From contig NZ_JACSQJ010000003.1 in the NCBI RefSeq assembly GCF_014836665.1, positions 186,001 to 250,000 on the forward strand: a stretch of DNA of 64,000 bases, given 5' to 3'. The stretch is from Luteimonas colneyensis (GTDB lineage: Bacteria > Pseudomonadota > Gammaproteobacteria > Xanthomonadales > Xanthomonadaceae). The notes under the pieces are model-generated. The model saw only the letters and a program-made list of their open reading frames with translations, made no database searches and was not told where the DNA came from. Positions 22,124-44,799 of the stretch are shown here, in pieces (position 1 is the first letter of the stretch; each line of letters begins with the position of its first letter). The position numbers and the translations under genes are program-made.

Positions 22124-23521
<1,398 letters not shown>

Positions 23522-24333: not shown

Positions 24334-24359
24334 TCGCACAGCACTACTGTTGTATATGC

Positions 24360-24399: not shown

Positions 24400-26334
24400 A
24401 TGTCCACCCGCGACCCAACACTCCGCCGCGTTGCTCCCCTGCTGCTGATTCCAGCCATCTGGCTGGTATGGCACATGGCGCTCCCGGGTGGATTTATTTT
24501 TGACGACTTCCCGAACCTGGTCCGGGCCAGCGGCTGGAAAGCGGATTCCCTGTCACCCCGGGCACTGCTTGACGCCATGAACAGCGGACTGACCAGCGAT
24601 GGTGGACGGCCGCTGTCGATGCTCAGCTTCGCCATCAACCACGCGACAACCGGCCTTGACCCCTGGTGGCTCAAGGCGACGTCGCTGGCGCTGCACGCCA
24701 TCAACGGTGTACTTGTCGCCCTGCTCGTTCACCGCGTTCTTGCAGCCCGTCCCTTGCCATCCAGCACGCCGCTGTCACTGGCGCCGGCAGCCTGGCTGAT
24801 CGCATTTGCATGGGCAGCCCACCCCGTCCAGGCGTCCACGGTCGCCTACACGGTGCAGCGCATGGAGATCGGCGCAGCCACCGGAGTCCTTCTCTCCCTG
24901 CTGTCCTACGTCACCTTCCGTCGGCGGCAACTGGCAGGCGACAGAGCCTGGCCATTCCTCGTGCTGACCGCGGCCACGTGGGCAATCGGGCTTGGCTTCA
25001 AGGAAAGCGCAGCCATAGCCCCCGCCCTGGCCGTGCTGGTCGAATGGATATGCTTCGGCTTCCGAAACCGGAGCGGCATGCCCGACCGCCTGCTCATTGG
25101 GGCTTTCGCGACAGGCGGCCTCGCTGCGCTGGCGGCGTTCATCATCATGGTCCTGCCGCTCACCAGCGCTGCCGCGTATGCGCCACGCGCGTTCGACGCG
25201 GCAGGGCGAACAAGCACCCAGTTTCCGGTCCTGTGCCACTACCTGGCCCTGATCTTCTGGCCGGCGTCCGACACCTTCCGGTTCTATTACGACGACTTCC
25301 CGGTTTCACTGACCCCTTGGCATGACGCCCGGACGATCCTGTCCATCGCGGCGATCCTTGCAGCCGTGCTCGGAGCCTGGGCACTGCGACGGCGCTGGCC
25401 ATTGGTAACGTTCGGCACGGCGTGGTTTTTCGCCTGCCACGCCATCACCAGCAGCCCGATCCCCTTGGAGCTTGCCTTCGAACACCGAAACTACCTGGCA
25501 CTGCTGGGTCCGCTGCTCGTCATTGCCAGCCTCCTCGCCACGGCCACGAAACGCCTGCATGGAGACGCCCGTCTCACTCTTGCGGCAACCGTGACCCTGG
25601 CGATTTCGGCCTTGGGTGCAATACAGGGTGCAACCTGGGGCAATCCAGCCAAGCTCGCGCTGACGCTTGAAAACCGGGCTCCCGGCTCCGCTCGGGCCGC
25701 GTATGGGTTCGCCACCCAGATGGTGGAAGCCGCACACGGTGACCCTTCCTCGCCGGCATGGTCACTCGGCATGGGCACACTGCAGCGCGCAAGCCACTTG
25801 CCCTCGGCATCACCGCTGATTCCGCAGGCGATCATCGTGCTCAGCGGCCAACAGGGCACCCCCCCACCCGCAGGCACCTGGGATCAGTTTCGTCGACTTC
25901 TGCTGCAGCGCCAATTGGGACCGGAAGGCATCGGGTCCCTGTACGCCGTCATCCAGTGCCGGGTTTCCGGTACCTGCCAGCTGCAGGACGACGAGCTGCT
26001 CGCCACCCTGCTCCAGGTCATCGCCGCGAACCCGCGCAACGCAAGGCTGCACACGTTGTATGCCAACGTTGCCTGGAACATCCTGGGCGACCGCGAGCTC
26101 GCCATCCGCATGCAGCGCGAAGCGGTCGCCTTGAGTGGGAGCGGCACATCCGCACTGCTTGGCCTGGCAGAGTTCCTGCTGGCCTCCGGTGAGCCCGACG
26201 CGATCGCCGAAGGACGGAACCTTCTGGAGTCGATACGCCGGAACCCGACAAGCGGCAGGACCTCGAGCGCCCTGTCCGCGCTCGAAGCCCGCTATCCGGC
26301 TTCATCTGCCCACTTTGACGATCAGTCTCCGTGA
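24400..26334 (+). CDS. TMTC-like GT-C membrane glycosyltransferase with C-terminal TPR-like region (paralogue 1)
   Basis: A 644-residue protein: about ten hydrophobic segments in residues 10-430, then a soluble helical TPR-like region. GT-C features are an acidic pair in the first periplasmic loop (GGFIFDDFPNL, about 30-40), GRPLSMLSF, HPVQASTVAYTVQRMEIG (resembling the HPV...R.E motif of TMTC/DUF1736 proteins), GFKESAA and FEHRNYLA. Such enzymes use a lipid-linked sugar and act outside the cytoplasmic membrane. The position directly after pilA suggests pilin as acceptor, which is inference. The gene at 28860 is its closest paralogue here. Its stop overlaps the next start (GTGA). Confidence 0.72.
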   Translation: MSTRDPTLRRVAPLLLIPAIWLVWHMALPGGFIFDDFPNLVRASGWKADSLSPRALLDAMNSGLTSDGGRPLSMLSFAINHATTGLDPWWLKATSLALHAINGVLVALLVHRVLAARPLPSSTPLSLAPAAWLIAFAWAAHPVQASTVAYTVQRMEIGAATGVLLSLLSYVTFRRRQLAGDRAWPFLVLTAATWAIGLGFKESAAIAPALAVLVEWICFGFRNRSGMPDRLLIGAFATGGLAALAAFIIMVLPLTSAAAYAPRAFDAAGRTSTQFPVLCHYLALIFWPASDTFRFYYDDFPVSLTPWHDARTILSIAAILAAVLGAWALRRRWPLVTFGTAWFFACHAITSSPIPLELAFEHRNYLALLGPLLVIASLLATATKRLHGDARLTLAATVTLAISALGAIQGATWGNPAKLALTLENRAPGSARAAYGFATQMVEAAHGDPSSPAWSLGMGTLQRASHLPSASPLIPQAIIVLSGQQGTPPPAGTWDQFRRLLLQRQLGPEGIGSLYAVIQCRVSGTCQLQDDELLATLLQVIAANPRNARLHTLYANVAWNILGDRELAIRMQREAVALSGSGTSALLGLAEFLLASGEPDAIAEGRNLLESIRRNPTSGRTSSALSALEARYPASSAHFDDQSP

Positions 26335-28190
26335 CGTACCCGCTTGACCAGAGCCCCGCCTTGCTTCCGGCACGCCGCAGGACCCCAAGCGTGGCAGCGG
26401 ACGACAAGCTCGTATTCGCATCGGCAGTTGTGGCCGCGACGGCCCTGGTGCTACTGGTCTACTGGCCCGTTACCAAGGCCGGCTACGTCTGGGACGACCT
26501 GCTGACGTTCCAGCAGCGCGGGTGGCTGTACCACGGCGATGCCTGGAAGCACTACATTTTCACCGGCTTCAACGAGTGGACACATTATTTCAGGCCGCTC
26601 GTCGTGGCCCTGTTCGTGCTCCAGGCCCGGCTGTTTGGCGGTGCACCCGAGCCGATGCACATGGTCACCCTGGGGATGCATCTGGCCAACGTCACCCTTG
26701 TGGCAGTGCTCGCCAAGTCGCTCACGCCCCCGGAATGGAAGTGGCGCAAGCTCCTCCCGCCGCTCAGCGGGCTGCTGTACGGCCTGCACCCCATGCTGGT
26801 CGAATCCGTCACCTGGATCGGCTGCCAGTTCGACCAGGTCCAGGTCATGGCGGCACTCGCAGGCCTGCTGTGCTCCCGTCGCATCGACAATCCCTGGCTG
26901 CGCGCGTTGGCCGTGGCCGGTTGCTTCCTGCTCAGCGCAGGTGCCAAGGAATCCGCGGCCAGCTTTCCCGCAATCGTCTTCCTCTTTGATTGGCTGCAGC
27001 GCAGCGATCGCAACCTTGCTCCTGCCACCCGGATCTTTGCACTGCTGCGTCGCAACTGGCCCGTGTACACGGCACTTTTGCTCGCAGGGCTCCTCTATCT
27101 GGGGCTGCGCCGCACCATGATGGGCGCAACGATCGCTGGCCTCGAGCCCTGGATGCTGACCCCCGACCAAGCCCGGCTGGATGCCATCGCCTATGTCTAT
27201 CTCAAGTACTGGTCGGTCGTGATCGGCATCCCGACCGACCTGAATCCGCTGCATCCGATCGGATCCGTGCAATTCGGCACCAGCGCTTGGCTGATGGGCC
27301 TGCGCATCCTTGGAGCCCTGGGTATTCTGGGTCTGGGCTTCCTGGCGCTGTCCAGGCGTTTCCCGGCGCTCGGGGTACTCGTGCTCGCCGCGACGGCCTA
27401 CCTCCTTCCCGTGCTTGGAATCATTCCGATCCAGTTCGACGGCAGTATCTACCACGAACGCTACGCCATCGGAGCGATTGCGCTCGCATGCACCCTCCTG
27501 CCCTTGATCATCCATGAGTTCCGCCACGTACTCGCCGGAATGCCCCTGCTTTCGAAGCTGCTGCCAGTCCTCGCACTCGCGTGGCTGGCCTGGGCAATCC
27601 CCAACATCCGCACCACCATCCCGCTATGGTCGAACAACGTGGCTCTTTGGGAATGGACCGTTCGGGGCAACCCCGGGAGTCCGCACGCGCTCGGGAACCT
27701 CATCAGCGCCTACATATTCGTCGGTGACGACGACAACGCGCGGAAGCTGGTCAGGCAGGCACTCGACGACGGAACGGCCTGCGACAACTGCTACGTCAAC
27801 GGCTTCATGATCGCCGTGCGCGATGGTGACACCGACATGATCGAGGGCACACTGGAGCGAATCAGGACCTCCCCGACCCTCTTCCAGGATAGCGGCCACC
27901 GCTATTTCTATTTCAGGGCGGTCGGCCACCTGGAACTTCGCCTCGGCAACCCGGAGTCTGCGATGAATGCACTCCGCGCCGCGATGGACATCGAGCCTCA
28001 AGAGCCTTTTGCCCACATGCTCATGGCAGAGGCCCTGATGGCTCGGGGCTCGGCCGCCGAGGCCAAGGCAGAGGCCGCACTGGCAGTGGAGCTGTCGCCC
28101 CCCAAGGACAGGAACGGCAGGCGCCAGCTGTCCCATCGCATTCTTGCAGGCGAGTCCGTACACGGCACTGCGCTCACACCCCCGGATTGA
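26331..28190 (+). CDS. TMTC-like GT-C membrane glycosyltransferase with TPR repeats (paralogue 2)
   Basis: A 619-residue protein. Hydrophobic segments occupy about 25-430, with the loop motif AGYVWDDLLTFQQRG, HPMLVESVTWIGCQFDQVQVM, GAKESAASFPAI and IYHERYAIG. These are the counterparts of DD, HPV, KES and EHRNY in its neighbours, but it is the most divergent of the three. The C-terminal ~150 residues form TPR-like helices (GNPESAMNALRAAMDIEPQEP; MARGSAAEAKAEAALAVEL). GTG 26331 overlaps the preceding stop. I infer a periplasm-facing glycosyltransferase, possibly acting on pilin or on the lipid-linked glycan. Confidence 0.7.
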   Translation: MTYPLDQSPALLPARRRTPSVAADDKLVFASAVVAATALVLLVYWPVTKAGYVWDDLLTFQQRGWLYHGDAWKHYIFTGFNEWTHYFRPLVVALFVLQARLFGGAPEPMHMVTLGMHLANVTLVAVLAKSLTPPEWKWRKLLPPLSGLLYGLHPMLVESVTWIGCQFDQVQVMAALAGLLCSRRIDNPWLRALAVAGCFLLSAGAKESAASFPAIVFLFDWLQRSDRNLAPATRIFALLRRNWPVYTALLLAGLLYLGLRRTMMGATIAGLEPWMLTPDQARLDAIAYVYLKYWSVVIGIPTDLNPLHPIGSVQFGTSAWLMGLRILGALGILGLGFLALSRRFPALGVLVLAATAYLLPVLGIIPIQFDGSIYHERYAIGAIALACTLLPLIIHEFRHVLAGMPLLSKLLPVLALAWLAWAIPNIRTTIPLWSNNVALWEWTVRGNPGSPHALGNLISAYIFVGDDDNARKLVRQALDDGTACDNCYVNGFMIAVRDGDTDMIEGTLERIRTSPTLFQDSGHRYFYFRAVGHLELRLGNPESAMNALRAAMDIEPQEPFAHMLMAEALMARGSAAEAKAEAALAVELSPPKDRNGRRQLSHRILAGESVHGTALTPPD

Positions 28191-28208
28191 GATCCCCGAC
28201 AAGGGGGT

Positions 28209-28224
28209 TGGCAAGCTTCTTGCA
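28209..28224 (+). promoter_or_regulatory. Sigma54 promoter of pilA2
   Basis: TGGCAAGCTTCTTGCA matches the -24/-12 consensus TGGCAC-N5-TTGCA with one mismatch. A start near 28236 would give a leader of about 155 bases before the second pilin gene. It begins 18 bp after the preceding stop codon. Confidence 0.85.
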
Positions 28225-28391
28225 CAGTCATTGATGGAGCAGGGGGCGCGATATGGGGTATCGACGCGGCATGCGTCGACGTCACGACCGCCGGGTCCCG
28301 CCTTTCAGTTCCGGTATGCGCCAGCAAGCGCAACGGCCTGACGCAACGCGTCGGATACAGACGAAGAATGGCAGCTACAGGGGGGGGCCAT

Positions 28392-28814
28392 ATGAAACGC
28401 GCCCAAGGCTTTACGCTGATCGAACTGATGATCGTGGTGGCGATCATCGCCATCCTGGCTGCAATCGCCTTGCCGGCCTACCAGGACTACGTCGCCCGCT
28501 CGCAGGTAAGCGAGGGCTTTTCGCTGTCCACCGACGCGCGCATGGCGATCGTGGTCTACCACGCCGACAGGGCCAGCTACCCCGTCGACAACACTCAGGC
28601 CGGCATCTCCACGGCAGCGTCGATCGTCGGCGATTACGTGGAGTCCGTCACCATCGGGAATGGGAATGGCCAGATCGACGTCCTGTTTGGCAACGAGGCA
28701 AGTGCAAAGATTGCAGGCCAGTCGCTGGTCATGACGATGGTGGACGAAGGTGGAGCCTTCCATTGGCGCTGTTCCGGGCTGGAGTCGAAGTACTTGCCTT
28801 CCGTCTGCCGCTAA
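28392..28814 (+). CDS. pilA2: Type IVa pilin PilA (copy 2)
   Basis: A 140-residue prepilin: leader MKRAQG, then [16 protein letters not shown]. Residues 6-41 are identical to copy 1, and the C-terminus (WRCSG ... KYLPSVCR) is very similar, but the centre is different. The ATG at 28392 follows a run of seven G. The second copy has its own sigma54 promoter and sits between the second and third GT-C genes. It could be an alternative major pilin or a minor pilin; I cannot tell which is dominant. Confidence 0.93.
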
Positions 28815-28859
28815 ACTGTCGGCTATGCGGGCCCCGCTACCCGCCAAGCCTTTCCGTCC

Positions 28860-30902
28860 ATGGCAAACCCACGCGTCCGCGCACGACTGCCGCTGTCCGC
28901 GCGTCCGCTGGTCTGGTGGCTCGGTGGGCTGATCCTCGCGTCGGCCGCAGTGCTCGTATACTGGCCGGGGACCAGCGGCGACTTCCTGTTCGATGACTTC
29001 GCCAACCTGCCCGCGCTGGGCCGCTACGGCGGCGTGCGCGACCTGCAGACTTTCCTGTATTACCTCGCTTCGGGCATCGCGGATCCGACCGGCCGCCCGG
29101 TATCGATGCTGTCCTTCCTGATCGATGCCAGGGACTGGCCTGCCGATCCCTTCTCCTTCAAGCGCACCGGCATCCTGCTGCACGCCGTCAATGGCCTGAT
29201 GCTCTACGGCATCCTGTCCGCCCTCGGGCGACGCCTGTCCGCGGACGCCACCCGGGTTCGCGCAGCCGCACTCATGGCCGCGGCACTGTGGCTGCTGCAT
29301 CCGCTGTGGGCATCCACCGTCCTGTACATCATCCAGCGGCAGGCGATGCTGGCGGCATTCTTCGTGCTGGCGGGCATTCGCGCCTGGATCGCCAGCCGCG
29401 ACGCCTTCGACGAAGGACGCCCCCGGGCCGGCTGGACGTGGGCCATCGCCGCAATGCCGTTTCTCGGACTGCTCGCAGGCTTGAGCAAGGCCAATGGCTT
29501 CCTGCTTCCGCTGCTGTTGCTCGTCCTGCAAGTAACCGTACTACGTCCCTCCCGGGCCGAAGACGGCCCTGCACGCAGGTCCCGGTTCCTGCTGGCAACT
29601 GCCCCGTCGATGGCCATCTTCGCCGCGCTGGCCGCGCTGGGTTGGGAGGCGTCCGGAGGCAATGCCCGGCGCAGCTTCGACCTTGGCCAACGCCTGCTGA
29701 GTCAGCCACGGGCGCTGGTCGATTACCTGCACCAACTGTTCGTCCCTGGCCTGGGCAACACGGGCGTGTTCGCGGACAGCTTCGTCGCCTCTTCAGGGCT
29801 GTTCTCGCCGTGGAGCACCCTTCCCGCGCTTTTTCTGGTCCTTGCGATGGCATTGACCGGTTGGGGACTGCGTCGATCCAGGCCCATACTGGCCTGCGCC
29901 CTGCTGTTCTTCCTCGCGGGGCACGCTCTGGAAAGCGGACCGCTTATGCTCGAACTCTATTTCGAGCATCGCAATTATCTCCCGGCGACCCTCATTTTCT
30001 GGCCTGTTGCGTGGTGGCTGTGCGCGCCCGGACGTTATCGAACCTTCCGAATCGCCGGCGGAACCGCGGCCACGTTACTGCTGTTGATGCTCACCTTCGC
30101 CCAGGCCACCCTTTGGAGCGACCCCCTCGCGCTCGCCCGGGACTGGGCCACCCGCAATCCGGAATCCGCAAGGGCACAGACCTACGCTGCGCAACAAGAG
30201 CTCTCGCACGGCCACGTGGCCACCGCCGAACGGCGCCTGGTCGACAACCTGGCCCGCCATCCTGGAGAAGCCCAGTTCGCCCTCAATCTCCTGAACCTGA
30301 GGTGCCAGAGAGAAATGGTTGCACGCTCCGACCTTGAGAAAGCCGGCCACGCCATCGGGGCCGAAGGCATCAGACTGGACATCGTCAACCAATGGCTCGG
30401 GAGCGTACTGGCGCCAGGCTCCCGGCATCCATGCACAGGCCTTCCGGATACCGCCGTGACCGAGCTACTCCAGCGCGCTATTCCCGAGCGCCCGGCATCT
30501 GCCGAGGAACAGGCACGCATCGCGGACCTGCTGGGCCTGCAGGCGCTGCGTCGCCATCAATGCCATGAGGCGGAAATGTTCTTCTCCGTTCGGCTGCGTG
30601 CGCAGCCCCGCCCCGAAGCTGTCCAGAACCAGACGGCCTTGCTGGCAACACATTGCAGTCCGGCGGTGGCACTGGGGCACCTCGAGCGCTACCTGGATGC
30701 CGGGGCCCCCGTGGCACGGGCCTCGAGCCCGGCCCTCCGGATGCGGGACAGAATGGCGGAATCGTCCTGGACGAGGCACTGGGACGAACTGCTGGAACAA
30801 TTGCGCGAAGACAGCTCCGCCAGCCAGACCGGAGGAGAGGCAGGACCACCCTCCCTGCAAGATGGTCCTGGCTCCACTGCAACCGGGAGCATTGACCCAT
30901 GA
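28860..30902 (+). CDS. TMTC-like GT-C membrane glycosyltransferase with TPR-like region (paralogue 3)
   Basis: A 680-residue protein closely parallel to paralogue 1: GDFLFDDFANLPAL, GRPVSMLSF, HPLWASTVLYIIQRQAML, GLSKANGFLLP and YFEHRNYLPATL. Hydrophobic segments cover about 15-430. The C-terminal part has helical repeats including RRLVDNLARHPGEAQFALNLL. KES of the other copies reads SKAN here. It follows pilA2 by 45 bp, so the arrangement pilin then GT-C gene occurs twice. The stop overlaps the next start (ATGA). Acceptor and donor are unknown. Confidence 0.72.
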   Translation: MANPRVRARLPLSARPLVWWLGGLILASAAVLVYWPGTSGDFLFDDFANLPALGRYGGVRDLQTFLYYLASGIADPTGRPVSMLSFLIDARDWPADPFSFKRTGILLHAVNGLMLYGILSALGRRLSADATRVRAAALMAAALWLLHPLWASTVLYIIQRQAMLAAFFVLAGIRAWIASRDAFDEGRPRAGWTWAIAAMPFLGLLAGLSKANGFLLPLLLLVLQVTVLRPSRAEDGPARRSRFLLATAPSMAIFAALAALGWEASGGNARRSFDLGQRLLSQPRALVDYLHQLFVPGLGNTGVFADSFVASSGLFSPWSTLPALFLVLAMALTGWGLRRSRPILACALLFFLAGHALESGPLMLELYFEHRNYLPATLIFWPVAWWLCAPGRYRTFRIAGGTAATLLLLMLTFAQATLWSDPLALARDWATRNPESARAQTYAAQQELSHGHVATAERRLVDNLARHPGEAQFALNLLNLRCQREMVARSDLEKAGHAIGAEGIRLDIVNQWLGSVLAPGSRHPCTGLPDTAVTELLQRAIPERPASAEEQARIADLLGLQALRRHQCHEAEMFFSVRLRAQPRPEAVQNQTALLATHCSPAVALGHLERYLDAGAPVARASSPALRMRDRMAESSWTRHWDELLEQLREDSSASQTGGEAGPPSLQDGPGSTATGSIDP

Positions 30903-32257
30903 CCGCCGATCCCGATCAGAACAGCCGTGGGTCCCTCCGCTGGTTTCCGGCTGCGGCGGCACTGGTCACGCTCGTCGCGCTGGCGATGCGCGGCATCTAC
31001 CTCATTGGTGCGGATACACCCATCCAGATCGCGGGTGATATCAACGACTACGTCAACTACGCAAGGAATCTCGGCGAGTACGGGGTGTACTCCTCCTCCG
31101 CGCCAAGCGCAGCGGCACCAACGCCGGATGGCTTCAGGCCGCCGGGCTATCCATTGTTCCTGCTGCTGCCGATGAAGCTTGCCGGCTTCGGGCCTGCGTG
31201 GCTGCCCGGTGCGCAGGCACTGCAGGTGCTCTTCAGCAGCGCAACGGTGCTGCTGACCATGATCCTGGGCCGGGAATGGCTGAAGCCGGGCTTCGCAGTC
31301 GCAGCCGGTGCGCTCCTGGCAGTCTGGCCGCACCATGTGGTATTCGCCTCCACGCTGCTGAGCGAGACCATGCTGGGATTCTCCGTGGTGCTGGCGCTCT
31401 GGCTGACCGCCGTCGCCTGGCGCAGGCAGTCACCCTGGCTCGCCCTCGCGGCAGGACTCGCGTTCGGTTACGCCTCACTTGTGAACACGCTGGTAGTCCT
31501 GTTCCCCGTTGCCCTGGTGGCCCTGGGCCTGCTGCGAAGACACCCGAAGATACCTCTCACGCTTGCAGCGGGGCTTGTAGCCGTGATGGCGGCATGGTCC
31601 ACGGTGAGCCCCGCACAGGTCGAAGGCAGCCGCTCGAACGCGCACCGGGCACAAATGAACTTCGTCCAGGGCTCCTGGCCGCTGTACCACGCCGCCTGGC
31701 GTGCCCGCCGCCAGCATGAGTCCGCGCAAAAGGTCATCGAGGCGATCGACGAGGAAATCATCCTGGTCACGCAATCTCCGCGGGAAGGCCTCGCCGCGAT
31801 CCATTCACGCGTGGCCCACGCCCCCCTGCGATACGCGAGCTGGTACCTTCTTGAGAAGCCATTTCTGCTGTGGGACTGGGACATTCGCCTCGGTTCGGGA
31901 GGCTTCCACTTCCTCCCCCCCCGCGCCAGTCCGTACGACAACCAGCCCGTCTTCAGGGCTACCGCGACGATGCTCAGACTGGGGAATCCGTTGCTGTTCG
32001 CATTGGCCGGGCTTGCCGCGTTGGCGTGCTCACGCGGATGGCTTCCGAAGTCCAGCATCCCCTTCGCGCCGGTCATGGTCGCAACCTTCGTGGTCTACGT
32101 CACCCTTGTCCACACCATTCTCCAGGCCGAGCCGCGCTACTCCATTCCCTACAGACCGGAACAACTGCTGCTGGCAATGGGTGGCTTGTCACTGCTGTCT
32201 TCCGCCACCGTGCGGCTGATTGCATGGACTTCCCGCAGGTGGAAAGGAAATGAATGA
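30899..32257 (+). CDS. GT39/ArnT-like GT-C membrane glycosyltransferase
   Basis: A 452-residue integral membrane protein with about ten hydrophobic segments. The first periplasmic loop carries AGDINDYVNYARNLGEYGVY and FRPPGYPLFLLLP, typical of PMT/ArnT-type (PMT_2) enzymes with an acidic pair and the following RPPGYP. AEPRYSIPYRPEQ near the C-terminus is also characteristic. Members transfer sugar from polyprenyl-phosphate sugars at the periplasmic face. It has no TPR region, unlike the three GT-C genes before it, and overlaps the following ABC transporter by 8 bases. Confidence 0.78.
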   Translation: MTADPDQNSRGSLRWFPAAAALVTLVALAMRGIYLIGADTPIQIAGDINDYVNYARNLGEYGVYSSSAPSAAAPTPDGFRPPGYPLFLLLPMKLAGFGPAWLPGAQALQVLFSSATVLLTMILGREWLKPGFAVAAGALLAVWPHHVVFASTLLSETMLGFSVVLALWLTAVAWRRQSPWLALAAGLAFGYASLVNTLVVLFPVALVALGLLRRHPKIPLTLAAGLVAVMAAWSTVSPAQVEGSRSNAHRAQMNFVQGSWPLYHAAWRARRQHESAQKVIEAIDEEIILVTQSPREGLAAIHSRVAHAPLRYASWYLLEKPFLLWDWDIRLGSGGFHFLPPRASPYDNQPVFRATATMLRLGNPLLFALAGLAALACSRGWLPKSSIPFAPVMVATFVVYVTLVHTILQAEPRYSIPYRPEQLLLAMGGLSLLSSATVRLIAWTSRRWKGNE

Positions 32258-33980: not shown

Positions 33981-33993
33981 CTCATCAGCAGAC

Positions 33994-35348: not shown

Positions 35349-36007
35349 TCGCAGCAGCCGGCCTCGGCTCCCGTTTGGGACATGGCCTACCAAAGTGCAT
35401 GCTTGAGATCGGCGGCAGGACGCTGTTGAGCAGGATGATCGACAGTCTGACGCCGCACGTCAGGCGGATCCATGTGGTTGTCGGTTACAGGGAAGATCTG
35501 GTCATCAACCTGTGTTCGAACCTTCACAGAAACGTGGTGATCGTCAGGAACCCTGATTTCCGCAGTACCAATACAGTTCAGAGCATGGCCTCGGGCGCCA
35601 GAGGATTGAGCGGAAAAACCATATTCTTGGATGGCGACCTGATCATAGATCCGTCCTCGCTGGGCGACTTCGCACGCATGGCCGCCGAACACGACACCGT
35701 CGCCGCCATTGCACTAAGCCGCAGCGAGAATGCCGTGAATGTCGACCTGTCCGCCCCCCCTGGTGCTGAGGAAACGACTTTCATTAGCGGCTTTACGCGA
35801 GAGGCGGACAGGCTTTATGAGTGGGCAAACGTTGTTTCTGGTGACTCCCGGCTGCTCGACCACGGATCAGGTTATGTCTATGAGGAACTCGAGAAACTCA
35901 CGCCACTATGCGCCAGCCTGCTTGAGCTGAGAGAGATCGATACACCGCGCGACTTGGAGATGGCAGAAAAATTTGCCAAGCACCTCGATGCCGGAAACCA
36001 GCTCTAG
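35324..36007 (+). CDS. Nucleotidyltransferase, LicC-like (small-molecule CTP/NTP transferase)
   Basis: A 227-residue NTP_transferase protein: AIAAAGLGSRLG-type phosphate loop (AAAGLGSRL, 10-18), PK at 23-24, FLDGDLIID for metal binding and the late REIDTPRDLEMA element seen in LicC and related sugar or aminoalcohol-phosphate cytidylyltransferases. It would activate a phosphorylated compound as a CDP (or NDP) derivative for the LicD protein encoded two bases downstream. GTG 35324 has GGAGGAA at 35313-35319. Substrate specificity cannot be read from the sequence. Confidence 0.75.
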   Translation: MQPVENAVIAAAGLGSRLGHGLPKCMLEIGGRTLLSRMIDSLTPHVRRIHVVVGYREDLVINLCSNLHRNVVIVRNPDFRSTNTVQSMASGARGLSGKTIFLDGDLIIDPSSLGDFARMAAEHDTVAAIALSRSENAVNVDLSAPPGAEETTFISGFTREADRLYEWANVVSGDSRLLDHGSGYVYEELEKLTPLCASLLELREIDTPRDLEMAEKFAKHLDAGNQL

Positions 36008-36009
36008 TC

Positions 36010-36957
36010 ATGCAGCAAAGTCCAGCCAGCCCGTCGATTCCCGACTTGGACCATACCGCACAAAGCACCCTGCGCGCGGTCCAACTCGTCCAACTCGGCA
36101 TACTTAGGATTATTGACCGCATTTGTCTTGAAAATGGAATCAGGTACTGGCTCGATGGAGGAACACTGCTTGGTGCCGTTCGTCATCGCGGCTTCATACC
36201 GTGGGACGACGATATCGACATCGCTATGCCACGGCCCGACTACGAGCGGTTTCTTAGAATCGCGCCAACTGTCCTTCCAAGCCATCTCCAGCTCGAAGAC
36301 TCGGATCAGATCGACGGACATGCATGCTATGCCGTGCCCTGCAAGATCAGGGACGTCCATAGCAAGATCACTGAAGCCCACCCTGAAAGCATGGCTGACC
36401 AGGGGAAAGGGCTGTTCGTAGACATCCTTCCCATCGATGCCTTCCACGCCCGGCCGATGGGCTTCAGAATCGACATGGCACTGAAATGGCTCTATCGCAA
36501 TCTATCAAAGATCAACGACGCCAAGGATTCATCCCTGCCTTGGACGTATAAGTTTGCGAACAGATGCCTGGAAGTTCTGCACCCTCTGGCCGGCGCCGGA
36601 ACGCCGATAAAAATGTATCGGTCGATACTCCGGCGAACGAGGCTGAATCGTGTTTTCAGAGGATCATCGCCGCTCGTCGGATACGGGTTTGACGTGCACT
36701 GGACGCGAGTGTTCAAGGCGACGGATATCTTTCCTCTGCAACGCATGGATTTCGAGGGGCTACAGTTCCTCGCCCCTAGGCGGCCTGACAACGTTCTGCA
36801 GGTTTTTTATGGAGCCGATTACCTCACCCCACCTCCTGCCATGCTCCGCTGCCCCAAGCACCTGTTCCTAGTCAATCTCGATACCAGATTGGGGAACAAC
36901 GTGAGAAAAGTAGAGTACGTGGATTATGGGATCGAGCGCCCGACCCGGCTTACATAG
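36010..36957 (+). CDS. LicD family phosphotransferase
   Basis: A 315-residue LicD/Fukutin-family protein. The family signature is complete: YWLDGGTLLGAVRHRGFIPW followed by DDDIDIAMPRPDYERF (about 47-81) with the catalytic aspartates D66-D70. Members transfer a phospho-alcohol, classically phosphocholine or ribitol-phosphate, from a CDP carrier onto a glycan. No licA kinase or licB transporter is adjacent, so the donor may not be phosphocholine. The gene is AT-rich: the line of 60 bases at 36481 contains 28 G+C. Confidence 0.88.
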   Translation: MQQSPASPSIPDLDHTAQSTLRAVQLVQLGILRIIDRICLENGIRYWLDGGTLLGAVRHRGFIPWDDDIDIAMPRPDYERFLRIAPTVLPSHLQLEDSDQIDGHACYAVPCKIRDVHSKITEAHPESMADQGKGLFVDILPIDAFHARPMGFRIDMALKWLYRNLSKINDAKDSSLPWTYKFANRCLEVLHPLAGAGTPIKMYRSILRRTRLNRVFRGSSPLVGYGFDVHWTRVFKATDIFPLQRMDFEGLQFLAPRRPDNVLQVFYGADYLTPPPAMLRCPKHLFLVNLDTRLGNNVRKVEYVDYGIERPTRLT

Positions 36958-37002
36958 ATTCCTCCCCCGACACCAGAACCATTAATAATCTTCCGGATCA
37001 CC

Positions 37003-37923
37003 ATGACCCACGTCACCGCCCTGGTTGTAACCTACAACCGCAGGGAACTTCTTCAGCGTTGTCTGGAGGCACTGACACGCCAGAGCCGGCTACCTGAACG
37101 AATTCTGGTTGTAGACAATGCATCCGACGACGGGACGCGTGAATTTCTCGAAAGTGACGGCTGGACGTCCCATCCCCGATTCGAAGTGATCGCTCTTTCT
37201 GAGAACACCGGTGGAGCAGGAGGGTTCTCTATAGGTCTTGAGAGGGCCATCGAGGGCGGGTCAGGTTGGACTTGGATGATGGACGATGATGCCGAGCCGC
37301 ATATAGACGCGCTAGAGCAATTGATGCGCGTAGCGGAAGACCCAGAACATATCTACGGCTCACTCGCCTCGAGTGGCGCGAGCACATCCTGGTTGACCAC
37401 ACTCATCACCCCCCTCCCGAAACGCGAGGTCGAGTTCGCGAGCGACGTACCGGACTGCGCGAAGGTGCAATCGCTTCCGTTCCTGGGCTTCCTGATACAT
37501 AGCCAACTGGTGGAGCGAATCGGCCTTCCAGACGCGGGCTATTTCATCGCAGCTGACGATGTGGAGTATTGTGTTCGCGCACAGAAGGCTGGTGCGGAAA
37601 TTGTGATCGCGGGGAAAAGCCGCATCGAGCATCCAAAGTCGAGGCCGTACAAGATCCAACTACCCGGCAGGACTTTGACCTGCCTAGCGCTTCCTCCCTG
37701 GAAGCGCTACTACGACACCAGAAACCGCCTGTTGATTTCGCGCACCCACTACGGCACGAAGCTGTTCACCCATACTCTTCCAGGATCTCTGGTTCGCTTT
37801 CTTGCAGCGATGTTGAAGGAGCCCAGGAGATTCGCTCAGGCCCATGCATTCGTTGCCGGATGCTTTGACGGCCTGCTTGGACTGAAAGGAAAAAGACATC
37901 AGAAATGGGGAATTCGCCCGTGA
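37003..37923 (+). CDS. GT2 glycosyltransferase, galactofuranosyltransferase (GlfT)-like
   Basis: A 306-residue GT-A enzyme: VVTYNRRELLQRCLEAL, VVDNASDDGT, SENTGGAGGFSIGLERA and the metal-binding WTWMMDDDAEPH (DDD at 94-96). NTGGAGGF and WMMDDD are typical of GlfT1/GlfT2-related galactofuranosyltransferases. It directly precedes and overlaps the UDP-galactopyranose mutase gene that would supply UDP-Galf, which strongly supports the substrate inference. It probably acts at the cytoplasmic face on the lipid-linked glycan. Confidence 0.8.
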   Translation: MTHVTALVVTYNRRELLQRCLEALTRQSRLPERILVVDNASDDGTREFLESDGWTSHPRFEVIALSENTGGAGGFSIGLERAIEGGSGWTWMMDDDAEPHIDALEQLMRVAEDPEHIYGSLASSGASTSWLTTLITPLPKREVEFASDVPDCAKVQSLPFLGFLIHSQLVERIGLPDAGYFIAADDVEYCVRAQKAGAEIVIAGKSRIEHPKSRPYKIQLPGRTLTCLALPPWKRYYDTRNRLLISRTHYGTKLFTHTLPGSLVRFLAAMLKEPRRFAQAHAFVAGCFDGLLGLKGKRHQKWGIRP

Positions 37924-39011
37924 ATGATTGCTTGGTCGTCGGAGCCGGCTTTGCCGGCGCCTCGGTGGCTCGCGCTCTTGCCGATGCCGGCCGACAGATA
38001 CGTCTAGTCGACAAGCGCACCCACATCGCCGGCAATGCGTACGACGAATATGATGCCCATGGCGTACTCGTGCACCGCTATGGTCCCCACATTTTCCACA
38101 CGAATGGGGAGAGAATTTTCCAATGGCTGTCACGCTTCACCGGCTGGCGGCCATACGAACACCGGGTGCTCGGAGTGGTCGATGGAAAGAGCTATCCCTT
38201 TCCCATCAATCGCGACACCCTCAACCAGCTGTACGGGCTGGATCTGGACGAGGCCGGCGCGCAGTCTTTTTTCGAGCAGGTGCGGGAGCCTCGCGACCAG
38301 ATAAGGACCAGCGAGGACGTAGTACTGAACTCGGTTGGACGCGACCTCTACGAGAAGTTCTTCCTCAACTACACGCGCAAGCAGTGGGGCCTGGAACCAT
38401 CCGCGCTCAAGGCCGGAGTTGCTGCCCGCATTCCCACCCGCACCAACAGCGACGACCGCTACTTCACCGACACGTTCCAGGCAATGCCCTCGCATGGCTA
38501 TGCCCGCATGTTCGAGAACATGCTCGACCATCCGAACATCAGCGTGGAGACCGGAGTCGACTTCCTAGACATCAGGAACAGCCATCGTTGCCGGCACGTG
38601 GTGTACACGGGACCCGTCGATGCATTTTACGACCACCGCTTCGGGCATCTTCCTTATCGATCCTTGAGGTTCGAACACGAACATCTGCCCGAGGTCGCCC
38701 GCTTCCAGCAGGTCGGCACGGTGAACTATCCGAACGACCACGCCTACACGAGGATCACGGAGTTCAAGCACCTCACGGGGCAGGAACATCCCGGCACATC
38801 CATCGTTCGGGAGTACCCCCGGGCGGAAGGTGATCCCTACTATCCGATTCCAAGCGATGCGAACGAGGCTCTCTACAAGCGCTACGAGGCACTGGCCCTG
38901 AGCGAGCCCGATGTAACGTTCGTGGGACGACTGGCGCAGTACCGCTACTACAATATGGACCAGGTGGTGGGCGCGGCATTGACTGCCGCGAAGCGGCTTC
39001 TGGAGCGCTGA
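37920..39011 (+). CDS. glf: UDP-galactopyranose mutase
   Basis: A 363-residue flavoenzyme: FAD-binding CLVVGAGFAGASVARAL at the very start, then IAGNAYDEY, YGPHIFHTN, and the conserved C-terminal GRLAQYRYYNMDQVVGAAL. It converts UDP-galactopyranose to UDP-galactofuranose. GTG 37920 overlaps the preceding stop (GTGA) and begins right at the first beta-strand as in E. coli Glf; ATG 37905 would add five residues. Its stop shares one base with the next start (TGATG). Confidence 0.93.
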   Translation: MNDCLVVGAGFAGASVARALADAGRQIRLVDKRTHIAGNAYDEYDAHGVLVHRYGPHIFHTNGERIFQWLSRFTGWRPYEHRVLGVVDGKSYPFPINRDTLNQLYGLDLDEAGAQSFFEQVREPRDQIRTSEDVVLNSVGRDLYEKFFLNYTRKQWGLEPSALKAGVAARIPTRTNSDDRYFTDTFQAMPSHGYARMFENMLDHPNISVETGVDFLDIRNSHRCRHVVYTGPVDAFYDHRFGHLPYRSLRFEHEHLPEVARFQQVGTVNYPNDHAYTRITEFKHLTGQEHPGTSIVREYPRAEGDPYYPIPSDANEALYKRYEALALSEPDVTFVGRLAQYRYYNMDQVVGAALTAAKRLLER

Positions 39012-40147
39012 TGCGAATCGCTTTCCTGTGCAAGCGCCGCTACATGGGCAAGGACGTGATCCTTGATCGCTATGCGCGACTTTACGAGATCCCGCGCCAG
39101 CTTGCCCGCCTGGGACATGAGGTCCGTGGCTATTGCCTCGATTACGGGCGCGGCGCTCCAGGTGAATGGATACACGACGGGAGCCCAGGCACTCTCCACT
39201 GGGAATCACGCCCCCTCGGCCGGCTTGGTCTACCCGGCCTGCTGCGCTATCCCGCCTCGCTGCTTCGCAGGCTTCGAGCCTTCCGGCCAGACATGCTGGT
39301 CGCGGCATCCGACATTCCGCACGTGGCACTGGGCCGACTCCTGTCGGATCGTCTTGAAGTGCCCTATGTCGTCGATCTCTACGACAACTTCGAAGGATTT
39401 GGACAAGCGCGCATTCCCTGCTTCGTCCCGATGCTGCGCTGGGGAACCCGAGGCGCGGCCTTGGTGACGACCACCAGTGAGCCGCTGCGGCAGCTTGTCG
39501 TCAACGGGTATGGGCTGCCTGGTGAATGTGTGGTCACCATGCCCAGCAGCGTGGACAAGGCGGTGTTCCATCGACAAGACGCGATAGGCGCGCGCCGCAA
39601 GCTCGGGCTTCCGCTTGATATGCCGCTGATCGGTACCGCCGGCGGCCTTTACCGCGACAAAGGCATCGCGGCTCTATATGCAGCATGGGAGCGCATCCGG
39701 TCCGGCAGGCCGGATGTCCACCTGGTCCTGGCCGGCCCGTATCGGGGCGAACTTCCGCCACCTCGCGACGAGCGCGTGCACTACCTGGGCGAGATGGCGC
39801 ACAACGACGTCGCCACCCTGTTCAGCGCACTGGACGTCGGCGTGATCTCCGTGCTCGACACCGCCTTCGGCCGCTACTGCTTTCCGCAGAAAGCCTATGA
39901 AATGCTGGCTTGCGGCCTGCCCGTGGCTGCTGCCGACGTGGGAGCCATGTCGGACCTTTTCCGTGACTGTCCCACGGCATTGTTTACTGCCGACGACCCG
40001 AGCGGGCTGGCCGATGCGGTACTGCGACAGCTTGCACGGCCAACCACCGCCGACATCGCCGTGCCGGACTGGGCGGCACTGGTGGGCTCGATCGAACCGT
40101 CGCTGCGTCGCCTGGCCGCTCAGCGGCACTTGGCCGTCGCCACGTAG
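39011..40147 (+). CDS. GT4-like glycosyltransferase
   Basis: A 378-residue GT-B enzyme. The N-terminal domain starts MRIAFLCKRRYMGKD and includes VPYVVDLYDNFEGFG. The C-terminal nucleotide-binding domain has GTAGGLYRDKGI, HLVLAGPYRGEL and the donor-site element GRYCFPQKAYEMLACGLPVAAAD. Sugar specificity is unknown. It is the last plus-strand gene of the glycan operon. Its 3' end overlaps the convergent methyltransferase gene by 28 bases. Confidence 0.82.
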   Translation: MRIAFLCKRRYMGKDVILDRYARLYEIPRQLARLGHEVRGYCLDYGRGAPGEWIHDGSPGTLHWESRPLGRLGLPGLLRYPASLLRRLRAFRPDMLVAASDIPHVALGRLLSDRLEVPYVVDLYDNFEGFGQARIPCFVPMLRWGTRGAALVTTTSEPLRQLVVNGYGLPGECVVTMPSSVDKAVFHRQDAIGARRKLGLPLDMPLIGTAGGLYRDKGIAALYAAWERIRSGRPDVHLVLAGPYRGELPPPRDERVHYLGEMAHNDVATLFSALDVGVISVLDTAFGRYCFPQKAYEMLACGLPVAAADVGAMSDLFRDCPTALFTADDPSGLADAVLRQLARPTTADIAVPDWAALVGSIEPSLRRLAAQRHLAVAT

Positions 40148-40851
40148 CCATCCCCAAGGTCGAGGCGATAGAAAAACCGCTGCACGACCTTGAAGGGCAA
40201 GACCAGGTTTCCACTGAACACCTTCAGCCAGCGCCTGATCGTGGGGGGCTTGCCCTGCGCGCTGCGGATGCTGCGCTGCTGGGGGCTCATGCCTTGATGC
40301 CCCGTCTCGTGGCGAACCAGGTAGTTGGAGAACCGCCTGGTGAGCTCGGTGATTGGGTATCCGTAGTTGACGATATGGATATCAACGAACCCGGCCGATT
40401 CGAGGAGGTCGCACAGCTGCCGCTTCTCGTAGCGCCGGACATGTCCGACCAGTTCGTCCGACTTGCCGTACTTTCGCTGGTGGGCCGGCACCGACACCAT
40501 CAGGCGGCCACCGGGCCGGAGATACGCCGCCCACTCCGTCAGCGCGGCGACATCGTCTTCGATGTGCTCCAGCACCTCGAAGGACAGGAGGTAGTCGAAC
40601 GAGGCTTCCGGCAGCAGCGAGAGGTCATCCACAACCCGGATGGCCTCCCCGTGGACCGCAAGGTTGTCGCGCATCATCTGTCGACTGTCCGCGCCGAGAT
40701 CATGGCAAACGCCATGAAAACCGCGTTCCAGCCACAGACGCGTCATGCCACCCGTTCCTGCTCCCGTTTCCAGGAAGCTGCCTGCGGACCAACCTGCGCT
40801 CATATCGGCCACACAGCTTTCACGAAGCACCAGCTTGGGCTGCTTTGCCAT
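40120..40851 (-). CDS. SAM-dependent methyltransferase (Methyltransf_11/UbiE-like)
   Basis: A 243-residue protein: FLETGAGTGGMTRLWLERG (motif I), the FDYLLSFEVLEHIEDD segment (motif IV, with the usual EVLEH) and LRPGGRLMVSVPAH. The C-terminal ~80 residues are basic. Located beside two glycosyltransferase genes of the same strand, it may methylate a sugar, but no specific substrate can be named. It is six bases downstream of the GT4 gene at 40858. Confidence 0.78.
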   Translation of the reverse strand: MAKQPKLVLRESCVADMSAGWSAGSFLETGAGTGGMTRLWLERGFHGVCHDLGADSRQMMRDNLAVHGEAIRVVDDLSLLPEASFDYLLSFEVLEHIEDDVAALTEWAAYLRPGGRLMVSVPAHQRKYGKSDELVGHVRRYEKRQLCDLLESAGFVDIHIVNYGYPITELTRRFSNYLVRHETGHQGMSPQQRSIRSAQGKPPTIRRWLKVFSGNLVLPFKVVQRFFYRLDLGDGYVATAKCR

Positions 40852-40857
40852 CCGTTG

Positions 40858-42096
40858 TTATCTCCCGTGAAAACTGTCGACGAGCAGCGTCGCATAGCCG
40901 TCCGCGATGCGTGCCCAGTCCACGTGCCGAGCGGCGGCGGTGCGGATACGACAGGCCCGCTCCTGGGCCAAAACCGGATCGGCAAGCACCTCGATGATCC
41001 TGGATGCCAAGGCTGCTTCATCCCGCGCATCGACGCAGACGTCTGCGCGATCGCGTCCCAACAGGTCACCGATTCCCGGTATGTCGCCTGCCACCACGGG
41101 GCAGCCGCAGGACACCGCCTCCATGAGGGCAACGGGCAAACCTTCCTGGTCACCGGATCCAGCCCGGACGAATGGAGCAACGAAAACCGCCGCGCTTCGG
41201 TAATGGTCGGGAAGCTCTGATTGCGGCAGTGCTCCCGTGAAACGCACTACCGACTCAAGCCCCAACTGGCGGACCTGCTCGCGCAGTGCCTCTTCATCGG
41301 GACCAAAGCCTGCAATGGTCAGGTAGGCATCAGGAATAGCATCGAGCAGGCGTGGCATTGCCGAAAGCAGGTGCCGGACGCCCTTCTTCTCCACGAGTCG
41401 GCCGACGAAAAGGATGCCGTTCCTGGACCGCTCTATTGCCGGATCCGGAGTGAATCGCCCCTCCACATCCACTCCCATGGGCAGGACATGGACCTTCTCG
41501 ACCGGCATTCCCGTCGACTCAAGCAGGTCGCACATGGCGCTGCTGACCACGGAGGCCGCGGACGCACGCCTGAGGACGAACCTCCGGATGCTGTTGAACA
41601 AACGCCCCCTGAGCGCGTACAGGTCAGCGCCATGGGAGGTGACGACAAACGGGACCGTCCGCCCCGGCAGCCATCCCAGGCAGGCCGCCATCAACCCCTG
41701 TGGAACCAGCCAGTGCGCATGCAGCACGTCCACCCTCAAGCGCCTGCACAGCCGCCAGCCGGCCCAAAACTGTGCCAGCACGAAGCCCGGGACCAGCAAC
41801 AGTTTCCACGGGTGCAGCTTGAGGTTGGTAACGATGCCACCGCCGTTGACCAGGGTTTCCAAACGGACGGGGGCATAGCGGTAGCGGTGCACTTCGACGC
41901 CGTCCATCACTTCCCTGGTGGCAGATCCCCGTGCGTGCGGGCCAAGGACATGGACGCGGAAGCGTGGAAGAAGGCGCTTCGCCAGCTCATGAACGAATCC
42001 GGGTTCGGGATCGCCAGGCCAGCGTGGATACGTCGAGGCGAGCACGAGCAGGACCGGACGGGCATCCGCTCCCCCGACGGGCAGATGCTCAGTCAT
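40858..42096 (-). CDS. GT4 family glycosyltransferase
   Basis: A 412-residue GT-B enzyme. N-terminal domain: LVLASTYPRWPGDPEPGFVHE, then DVLHAHWLVPQGL. C-terminal domain: ILFVGRLVEKKGVRHLL, GFGPDEEALREQ and the donor-binding EGLPVALMEAVSCGCPVV. It overlaps the upstream GT2 gene by 8 bases, so the three minus-strand genes (42940 to 40120) form one operon pointing toward the plus-strand glycan operon. Confidence 0.87.
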   Translation of the reverse strand: MTEHLPVGGADARPVLLVLASTYPRWPGDPEPGFVHELAKRLLPRFRVHVLGPHARGSATREVMDGVEVHRYRYAPVRLETLVNGGGIVTNLKLHPWKLLLVPGFVLAQFWAGWRLCRRLRVDVLHAHWLVPQGLMAACLGWLPGRTVPFVVTSHGADLYALRGRLFNSIRRFVLRRASAASVVSSAMCDLLESTGMPVEKVHVLPMGVDVEGRFTPDPAIERSRNGILFVGRLVEKKGVRHLLSAMPRLLDAIPDAYLTIAGFGPDEEALREQVRQLGLESVVRFTGALPQSELPDHYRSAAVFVAPFVRAGSGDQEGLPVALMEAVSCGCPVVAGDIPGIGDLLGRDRADVCVDARDEAALASRIIEVLADPVLAQERACRIRTAAARHVDWARIADGYATLLVDSFHGR

Positions 42097-42940
42097 CCCG
42101 CCGGTACGTCAGGGCCGTGATCTGCTCGGACACCAAGCCGACCAGGAAGATGATGACCGCGGCACTGAACAGCAGCAGGCTCATGTTGGTAAACCTGCCC
42201 TGCGTGAAATAGGTAAACAGGTAATAGCCCAATCCCGTCGCAAAGAACGCGCCAGACACCGGCACGAACAACTTCAACGGCGAATACAGCGTCGCAACCT
42301 TGAAGATGATCAGCAGGAACCGGATCCCGTCCCTCACCAGTCGGATATGACTCCTCCCCAGTCGCTTTGCTACCGGGATTGGCACGTAGGCTACCGGATA
42401 GGCACTCCTGAAAAACGCCATCGTGCTCGTGGTCGGATAGCTGAACCCGTTCGGCAGCAGGTGCAGGAATTCCCGGAACTTCTCCGCCCGCACCACCCGG
42501 AAGCCCGAGGTGAGGTCCTTGACCTCGAATCCCGTCATCCGGCTGGCCAGCCAGTTGTAGAAGGCATTGGCCGCCCCGCGGTGGACGCCCGCCTGCCCCG
42601 CCCAGTCGCGGGCGCCGACCACCATGTCGTAGCCCTCGCCCGCCTTCTCCAGCAGGCTGCCGATGCTCGCAGGGTCGTGCTGGCCGTCCGCATCCATGAA
42701 CACCAGAACCTCGCCGATCGCCGCGCGCGCGCCGCGCTTGATGGCGGCGCCGTTGCCCATCGAGTAGGGTGAAGAAAGCACGCGCGCACCAAGGCTGGCG
42801 GCTATATCGGCGGTGTCGTCGGTAGACCCATCATCCACCACAATCACCTCGGCGTCAGGCAGCAGTGTCCGAAGCGCAGGCAGGGTCCGACGCAGGCCTT
42901 CGGCCTCATTCTTGGCAGGCAGGATGACTGAAACGTGCAT
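42089..42940 (-). CDS. GT2 glycosyltransferase, dolichol/polyprenyl-phosphate mannosyltransferase-like, membrane anchored
   Basis: A 283-residue protein: SVILPAKNEAEGLRRTLP, VIVVDDGSTDDT, VFMDADGQHDP (DXD-like) and LTSGFRVVRAEKF. Two hydrophobic helices at the C-terminus (about 225-275) anchor it to the membrane. DPM-like enzymes make polyprenyl-phosphate sugars, which is the donor type that GT-C enzymes use; this may therefore feed the GT-C proteins of the island. ATG 42940 is preceded by GGGGAG; the longer open frame upstream lacks family similarity. Confidence 0.85.
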   Translation of the reverse strand: MHVSVILPAKNEAEGLRRTLPALRTLLPDAEVIVVDDGSTDDTADIAASLGARVLSSPYSMGNGAAIKRGARAAIGEVLVFMDADGQHDPASIGSLLEKAGEGYDMVVGARDWAGQAGVHRGAANAFYNWLASRMTGFEVKDLTSGFRVVRAEKFREFLHLLPNGFSYPTTSTMAFFRSAYPVAYVPIPVAKRLGRSHIRLVRDGIRFLLIIFKVATLYSPLKLFVPVSGAFFATGLGYYLFTYFTQGRFTNMSLLLFSAAVIIFLVGLVSEQITALTYRRDD

Positions 42941-43074
42941 GATCTCCCCTTTGCGGCAAGGGTAGCGGGATTCCCCGTCCCGCGGCAGGGTCATCGGCAG
43001 GAGCGTGACGCCCGTCGGGCTGTGGCACAGCGGACGCTTGCGCTAAAGTCTGCCCGTCGCGAAGGGGATCACCA

Positions 43075-44799
<1,725 letters not shown>

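Follow-up and report, generated by a model that had tools for sequence, protein, structure and literature searches.

A probable allele of a hypervariable pilin-glycosylation locus in Luteimonas colneyensis, with a predicted phospho-N-methylthreonine module related to flagellin genes

Two described systems come close to the locus reported here. The first is TfpW, the Pseudomonas aeruginosa group IV pilin arabinosyltransferase, a GT-C glycosyltransferase whose gene adjoins pilA; the pilin alleles there vary, come with accessory genes and have a terminator behind pilA, as outlined in parts of PMC11841053 and PMC12369383. The second is the phospho-glycan module of P. aeruginosa b-type flagellin and C. 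difficile Type A (PA1088-PA1091 and CD0240-CD0244, respectively). Here we analysed a stretch of 64,000 nucleotides (hereafter the window) of contig NZ_JACSQJ010000003.1 from Luteimonas colneyensis, whose genome comprises 3.02 Mb in 13 contigs, focusing on the genes lying between pilR and pilB (hereafter the island). We consider it fairly probable that this interval represents one of the alleles of a hypervariable pilin-glycosylation locus, in which a galactofuranose (Galf) glycan bearing a phospho-N-methylthreonine cap would be moved to pilin by a GT-C enzyme.

The locus resembles TfpW in having a GT-C gene directly after pilA, a likeness of position and description, and differs from it by a tetratricopeptide repeat (TPR) domain, several GT-Cs, a dpm gene and a local variable glycan cassette. 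With the flagellin modules it shares methyltransferase, HAD and NTP transferase homologues in the P. aeruginosa gene order, next to a filament-protein gene; here, however, the module sits in a pilin locus, LicD stands for the PF04464 phosphotransferase/FgtA, and flippase and Galf genes are attached. TfpO, TfpM, PglS and PglL also place glycans onto pilins or pilin-like proteins, the gene being linked to its substrate for the first three, according to the part of PMC12645811 available; those enzymes are WaaL-like with an O-antigen-ligase domain, whereas no island protein matched Wzy_C at E<=0.01. Archaeal AglJ/AglB N-glycosylation and PMT O-mannosylation likewise associate a polyprenyl-monophosphate glycosyltransferase with a GT-C enzyme of PMT/AglB-like fold, whereas the present system is bacterial and pilin-linked, and resembles them in fold or below model cut-offs only. 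The Lic-1 phosphocholine locus shares LicD and a LicC/PntC-type NTP transferase, but no choline kinase or permease match was obtained in the island, which in turn holds a methyltransferase and a HAD protein. Finally, several pilA types occur at the corresponding pil locus (pilCABRS) of Xanthomonas vasicola, where pilA sequence types have spread by horizontal transfer; the available part of that report names no glycosylation genes (PMC4235730). Searches of open-access literature, which mostly leaves out subscription papers, listed no already known pilin system with this composition.

On the plus strand, pilA1 is followed by a hairpin, two GT-C/TPR genes, pilA2, a third GT-C/TPR gene and GT-C 4, then by genes for a PglK-like ATP-binding cassette (ABC) flippase, a methyltransferase (mt1), a HAD-IB protein, an NTP transferase, LicD, a GlfT1-like GT2, Glf and a GT4; three minus-strand genes (methyltransferase, GT4 and DPM-like GT2, together 40120-42994) precede pilB. 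Gene identities were assigned from Pfam and NCBIfam profile matches, as follows.

19142..22042, plus strand: pilS sensor kinase (Pfam HisKA, HATPase_c, 6TM_PilS); long open reading frame, start uncertain
22073..23521, plus strand: pilR response regulator (Pfam Sigma54_activat 2.9e-68, Response_reg, HTH_8); start uncertain
23785..23800, plus strand: sigma-54-like site upstream of pilA1, 1 mismatch
23905..24333, plus strand: pilA1, major-type pilin (Pfam Pilin 4.8e-26, N_methyl)
24358..24382, plus strand: terminator or attenuator hairpin after pilA1 (11-bp stem and T6)
24400..26334, plus strand: GT-C/TPR 1, proposed pilin oligosaccharyl/glycosyltransferase (AlphaFold2 model, structure comparison)
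26331..28190, plus strand: GT-C/TPR 2 (18% identity to GT-C 1 in alignment; TPR match)
28209..28224, plus strand: sigma-54-like site upstream of pilA2, 1 mismatch
28392..28814, plus strand: pilA2, second pilin (Pfam Pilin 1.5e-20)
28860..30902, plus strand: GT-C/TPR 3 (homologous to GT-C 1, 1.3e-34)
30899..32257, plus strand: GT-C 4, PMT_2-like, 452 aa (PF13231 25.3 bits, just below the cut-off of 26.1)
32250..33980, plus strand: PglK-like ABC flippase (ABC_membrane, ABC_tran; NF050066 1.1e-96, below cut-off)
33994..34752, plus strand: mt1, PA1088-type N-methyltransferase (37% over 242 aa to the methyltransferase beside b-type fliC)
34749..35348, plus strand: HAD-IB, PA1089-type, phosphoserine-phosphatase-like (48% over 201 aa)
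35324..36007, plus strand: NTP transferase, PA1090-type, proposed CDP-(N-methyl)threonine synthase (40% over 225 aa; NTP_transf_3; best PDB match 6pd1)
36010..36957, plus strand: licD, proposed cap phosphotransferase (PF04991 6.4e-43; LicD 147.9 bits)
37003..37923, plus strand: GlfT1-like GT2 (NF050113 1.6e-31, 109.7 bits, below the cut-off of 330)
37905..39011, plus strand: glf, UDP-galactopyranose mutase (TIGR00031 362 bits, above cut-off)
39011..40147, plus strand: GT4 glycosyltransferase (Pfam)
40120..40851, minus strand: methyltransferase (Pfam)
40858..42096, minus strand: GT4 glycosyltransferase gt4b (Pfam), often adjoining dpm in synteny
42089..42994, minus strand: dpm, polyprenyl-phosphate glycosyltransferase, conserved partner adjoining pilB (AglJ model 6.6e-30, below cut-off)
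43075..44799, plus strand: pilB (Pfam), then pilC 44919-46190, pilD 46198-47058 and coaE 47145-47891

These profiles bear out the set of genes, about 18.5 kb between pilA and pilBCD, that a preliminary description of this DNA had listed, including the second pilin and the Galf module, in which glf exceeds its cut-off and the GlfT1-like gene falls short. The PglK-like flippase is an ABC transporter and counts as a homologue, its score of 324.6 bits lying below the NF050066 equivalog cut-off of 1000. GC content drops to 0.56-0.57 at ~33-38 kb; it is 0.63-0.66 over the GT-C genes and, for the most part, 0.65-0.75 on either side of the island. The three sigma-54-like sites of the window do not exceed the chance expectation (3.6). 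The pilS frame spans 966 aa, ~430 residues preceding the PilS membrane domain, and tblastn returned matches to this upstream part in many relatives.

Examination of 198 genomes of the family revealed that this arrangement is widespread. Relatives of GT-C 1 (E<=1e-3) occurred in 98 of them and dpm (E<=1e-60) in 90; both were present in 88, GT-C only in 10 and dpm only in 2 (Fisher 8e-42, the species not being independent). Regions were fetched for 60 of the 98 GT-C genomes, and a pilin motif lay within 2.5 kb upstream of GT-C in 59 of these 60, in 15/16 regions of the genus and in 74/80 named loci, compared with 125 of 1200 random positions. The sole family region without an upstream pilin (L032) is cut at the contig start, and in four of the six such named loci (L138, L173, L174, L177, L185 and L203) the first GT-C lies at most 0.9 kb from the end of the locus. 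In the fetched family regions pilB commonly comes after dpm. The stretch from GT-C to dpm measured 1.7-10.9 kb (median 6.6; 40 regions with both ends) and differed in gene content, with several flippase types; in one of the 40 (L059) it encloses pilB-pilD. Among 117 of its 216 genes, drawn from 22 of the 40 regions and tallied for the first 25 of 64 families, the largest classes were Glyco_trans_1_4 (29), Methyltransf_11 (23), Glycos_transf_2 (9), Polysacc_synt (8) and DegT_DnrJ (7).

Within the genus, where 43 of 50 pilB places were sampled, the window included, 17 carried GT-C and dpm, 2 GT-C only and 22 neither (no GT-C match >100 bits and no dpm match >250 bits in the region, several of these regions being short, e.g. 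L095, L099 and L106), while 2, both without pilin, were uninformative. Named relatives included members of Luteimonas, Lysobacter, Stenotrophomonas, Pseudoxanthomonas, Dyella, Rhodanobacter and Frateuria, two Pseudomonas species and one Acinetobacter. The latter, Acinetobacter sp. HR7 (L197), stands outside the order and holds together pilin, GT-C, pilin, dpm, a PglK relative, glf and GT4. Judged by sequence comparison, the island thus appears as one allele of a hypervariable pilin locus across the family rather than as a one-off feature, and to call the pil cluster "interrupted" is misleading, because the layout is usual in about half of the family sample. The synteny comparison that the preliminary description had proposed returned the pilin/GT-C linkage family-wide, LicD being found in 8/198 family genomes, in the cassette for 4 of these 8.

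The pilin is probably the acceptor. Over 57 loci (those without pilin, dpm or pilB, and duplicate pilins, dropped), PilA distances correlated with GT-C distances (r=0.60; 0.59 as a partial correlation on pilB; 0/2000 permutations), while the PilA correlation with pilB was 0.13 and that of dpm with pilB 0.49. A comparison with pilR in a common set of 48 loci, from which duplicate pilins and 6 regions whose pilR lies on the opposite strand were dropped, gave 0.29 for PilA against pilR and 0.53 for PilA against GT-C. In addition, a hairpin and its T run are located behind the pilin stop in 37/74 regions versus 60/1480 random pieces, a terminator after pilin being presented in the consulted part of PMC11841053 as a feature of pilin accessory cassettes; within the window as a whole, the 10 hairpin/terminator sites do not exceed shuffles (12.9). 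Ser/Thr content of the pilins was uninformative (0.220 with GT-C, n=30; 0.201 without, n=29).

In two of the three large membrane proteins Pfam matched only TPR models, at the C-ends, and in the third no model. The AlphaFold2 model of GT-C 1, built from 61 sequences (predicted local distance difference test score 91.4), ends in a TPR part, and its membrane part (residues ~1-440) aligned best in VIA-align with the Pmt1-Pmt2 complex (6p25_B; Z 17.9, root-mean-square deviation (rmsd) 5.2, 356 aligned), yeast oligosaccharyltransferase (8agc_A; Z 17.5, rmsd 5.2, 341 aligned), Archaeoglobus oligosaccharyltransferase (3waj; Z 17.2, rmsd 4.9, 310 aligned) and ArnT (5f15; Z 15.2, rmsd 4.8, 320 aligned). 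Residues D35, D36, R263, R270, D298, E361, H362, R363 and N364 are invariant in the 61 sequences, and a GT-C membrane fold with acidic residues in its first loop was thus found, for GT-C 1 only. Among the four GT-C enzymes initially announced, GT-C 1 is identified by its modelled fold and GT-C 2 and 3 as its sequence relatives, while GT-C 4 keeps a PMT_2 match just short of its threshold. Presumably, the TMTC protein O-mannosyltransferases, GT-C enzymes with C-terminal TPRs, are alike in architecture; membership of that family found no Pfam support at E<=0.01. The nearest NCBIfam model of dpm is AglJ, and its nearest PDB entries are ArnC, dolichol-phosphate mannose synthase (DPMS) and the GtrB-type sll0501. 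Going by sequence and model, dpm and GT-C look like the maker and the user of a sugar donor, and dpm would start the lipid-linked glycan.

A second line of evidence concerns the cap. Searched with mt1, plasmids yielded a single record, a megaplasmid of P. aeruginosa whose flagellar cluster runs from flgL through a methyltransferase, HAD and NTP transferase to a large protein of the CDP-glycerol-glycerophosphotransferase family, and then to b-type fliC. The window triad is homologous to these genes (37, 48 and 40% identity for mt1, HAD and NTP transferase) in identical order, and HAD and NTP overlap by 25 bp in both, provided that the window's NTP transferase begins with the GTG at 35324. We take the megaplasmid genes for the PAO1 type, judging from their position beside b-type fliC. 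In PAO1, pa1088-pa1091 mutants have a truncated or absent flagellin glycan, and the cap has been assigned as N,N-dimethylthreonine phosphate-linked to a deoxyhexose, with CDP-N,N-dimethylthreonine as proposed donor, in the part of PMC11833859 (2025) available; a partial view of PMC10714395 covers the C. difficile counterpart. The "LicD cassette" of the preliminary description does contain licD, and is best read as a flagellin-type CDP-N-methylthreonine module. The megaplasmid itself (L218, NZ_CP131792.1; 847 kb) is typed as conjugative and comes from a P. aeruginosa blood isolate.

This module is confined to pilin loci in the genomes searched. At E<=1e-25, mt1 was found in no genome other than the window's own among 369 of the class, and HAD (E<=1e-30) in 6/198 family genomes from six genera, each time (6/6) between GT-C and dpm, spans representing 0.3-0.6% of the genome. 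Among 250 genomes of the order HAD gave three matches (G000, which is the window's genome, G087 and a seventh in a second family), the seventh also lying in a pilin locus; in phage records only three matched, at 27-28% identity, two being annotated serB. Three genera, represented by G000, G037 and G087, have the pglK-mt1-had-ntp-licD block in common. No PF04464 match was obtained in the window's genome, where LicD, with a single match, stands in its place and is therefore the natural candidate for the transfer step. PF04464 proteins above cut-off are present in five (G037, G087, G042, G801 and Frateuria flava L171) of the seven other loci with the triad or HAD-NTP, and the remaining two (G197 and G072) have just a weak relative that does not reach it; in G197 and G801 a Polysacc_synt flippase precedes the triad and a weak or clear PF04464-kind transferase follows. 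L. cucumeris carries an allele that combines the triad with a Polysacc_synt flippase. The transferase that comes after the triad in L026, L028, L171 and L226 (c66) exceeds the PF04464 cut-off in the latter two and matches below it in the former two; its profile found no match by hmmsearch of P. aeruginosa proteins, and hhalign paired it with the PF04464 segment of the large megaplasmid protein at a probability of 31. Computed residue masses are 195/209 Da for mono-/dimethylated phosphothreonine, with methylated phosphoserines isomeric, and 165 Da for phosphocholine. A trimethyl-phosphoserine cap, isomeric with dimethyl-phosphothreonine, was dropped in favour of the published assignment.

At the same site, two of these genomes carry other phospho-modules. 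L048 (G037; 3763-6330) encodes an IspD/short-chain-dehydrogenase fusion, which we read as of CDP-ribitol type, and a PF04464 phosphotransferase, suggesting a ribitol-phosphate decoration. L030 (G042; 9486-18107) encodes a phosphoenolpyruvate mutase/CTP-transferase fusion, a LicD-like protein, a HAD-NTP fusion and a methyltransferase, making a phosphonate-decorated pilin glycan possible.

From these elements we infer a pathway, with its acceptor, linkage, step order, sugars, cap chemistry and LicD as cap transferase. The minus-strand dpm would load polyprenyl phosphate with a first sugar, and cytoplasmic transferases would lengthen the glycan, adding Galf from Glf. The mt1-HAD-NTP triad would produce CDP-N-methylated threonine, from which LicD may place phospho-N-methylthreonine on the glycan. 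The PglK-like protein would then flip the lipid-linked glycan, and in the periplasm a pilin-matched GT-C/TPR enzyme would move it to PilA1, PilA2 or both, the remaining GT-Cs contributing further polyprenyl-phosphate sugars. The earlier proposal of a phosphorylated, Galf-containing glycan on PilA gains comparative support for a pilin-directed glycan made from lipid-linked sugars and bearing Galf and phosphate, attachment to PilA itself staying a prediction.

Several observations weigh against this pathway. Foldseek alone gave no match for GT-C 1 at E<=0.001, TPR proteins heading its list; the GT-C relatives surfaced only in the VIA-align second look, which is blind to folds missed by Foldseek. 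Mostly helical models can reach a high Z without kinship, although the best rows (15-18) exceed the stated 13-14. PilA and GT-C lie a median of 140 bp apart, and linkage can be the source of part of their correlation. On the PilA tree (59 rows, two pilins outside the pilR-pilB interval dropped), GT-C presence or absence requires 11 changes, compared with a mean of 19.8 in shuffles performed on this tree only (0/500 as low as 11); the pilB tree (41 rows) also requires 11, therefore presence is not closer to pilin type than to the backbone, and this was dropped as support. The pilin is an acceptor predicted from sequence and has no defined acceptor site. The SAM-binding part of mt1 is nearest in the PDB to phosphoethanolamine N-methyltransferases, which fits phosphocholine too, and as LicD replaces the PF04464 phosphotransferase of flagellin clusters, the transferred group could differ.

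Among the alternatives, the one that survives best supposes two systems at one site: dpm and GT-C/TPR would put a single sugar on pilin, the flippase, Galf and LicD genes making another surface glycan. It overlaps with the pathway proposed above, and agrees with a constant core of dpm and GT-C around a variable stretch that can shrink to 1.7 kb, and with dpm distances that follow pilB rather than PilA. Nevertheless, the restriction of the triad HAD to these loci (6/6) and the several flippase types among the cassettes argue against it, and we regard it as unlikely.

A choline-independent route to phosphocholine shares the pilin part of the preferred pathway: mt1 would methylate phosphoethanolamine, the NTP transferase would yield CDP-choline, and LicD would place phosphocholine on the pilin glycan. 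The best PDB matches of mt1 would suit it, as would the proximity of the NTP transferase to PntC (6pd1), a LicC relative in the consulted part of PMC6697681, and the known role of LicD as phosphocholine transferase, stated in the accessible part of PMC10434233. Against it stand the order and overlap of the triad, which recur among b-type flagellin genes with PAO1 counterparts that give rise to dimethylthreonine phosphate, the lack of any LicA/LicB-type Pfam match in a search of the island only, and the HAD protein, which this route leaves unexplained. Phosphocholine, our first reading of the LicD cassette, was demoted to second choice after the flagellin-cluster homology, and now seems rather improbable.

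O-antigen and capsule clusters often contain Galf and LicD genes, PglK-like flippases and enzymes of the GT4 and GT2 families, and the GC drop suggests import, so that a lipopolysaccharide (LPS)/O-antigen or exopolysaccharide cassette placed at the pil locus by chance, its GT-Cs decorating LPS, must be weighed. The Xanthomonas lps locus, with wzm and wzt, lies between metB and etfA (PMC524487, in part); here contig C10, away from the island, holds a metB-like gene with an ABC-transporter pair and GT2 enzymes behind it, and the island has no metB-flanked polysaccharide cluster. The likeness of the C10 cluster to the Xanthomonas locus rests on the metB-like gene and the transporter pair, whose Wzm-like membrane protein matched ABC2_membrane once (31.9 bits, cut-off 26.9) and had no match in two other runs, one of them with hmmscan. 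With Wzy_C proteins on C8 and C9 (three above cut-off), the genome's only Bac_transf match on C9, no Wzy_C or Bac_transf Pfam match among island proteins, and a GT-C that adjoins pilin in nearly all relatives examined and co-diverges with PilA, this origin is very improbable, an LPS role of the island being possible but not needed.

Elsewhere in the window, a partial match to a Tle1-like phospholipase-effector domain of type VI secretion systems (48752-50281, minus strand) adjoins the pil cluster, and a ClpA/ClpB-type open reading frame of 1176 aa (6881-10411, minus strand), whose best Clp_N stretch covers residues 410-460, may bear a long extra N-terminal part or have its start placed too far upstream.

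More broadly, we tentatively suggest, at somewhat less than even confidence, a new class of bacterial protein O-glycosylation, in which polyprenyl-monophosphate glycans with an AglJ/DPM-like start would pass to pilin via a PMT/AglB-like GT-C/TPR oligosaccharyltransferase co-evolving with it and the cassette would be swapped between species like an O-antigen locus, the present version comprising Galf and a phospho-N-methylthreonine cap, with LicD as a CDP-amino-acid phosphotransferase. By analogy with P. aeruginosa, the locus likely serves to evade phages that bind pili and to tune the pilus surface. A phosphate-linked amino acid on a filament glycan was so far known from flagella; if our reading is true, phospho-methylthreonine glycans would also reach type IV pili, LicD would gain a new donor, and the known pilin glycosyltransferases would gain a GT-C/TPR class. 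Many species of one order would then vary their pilus coat by cassette exchange at one site, offering a system for studying how pilus phages shape surface glycans.

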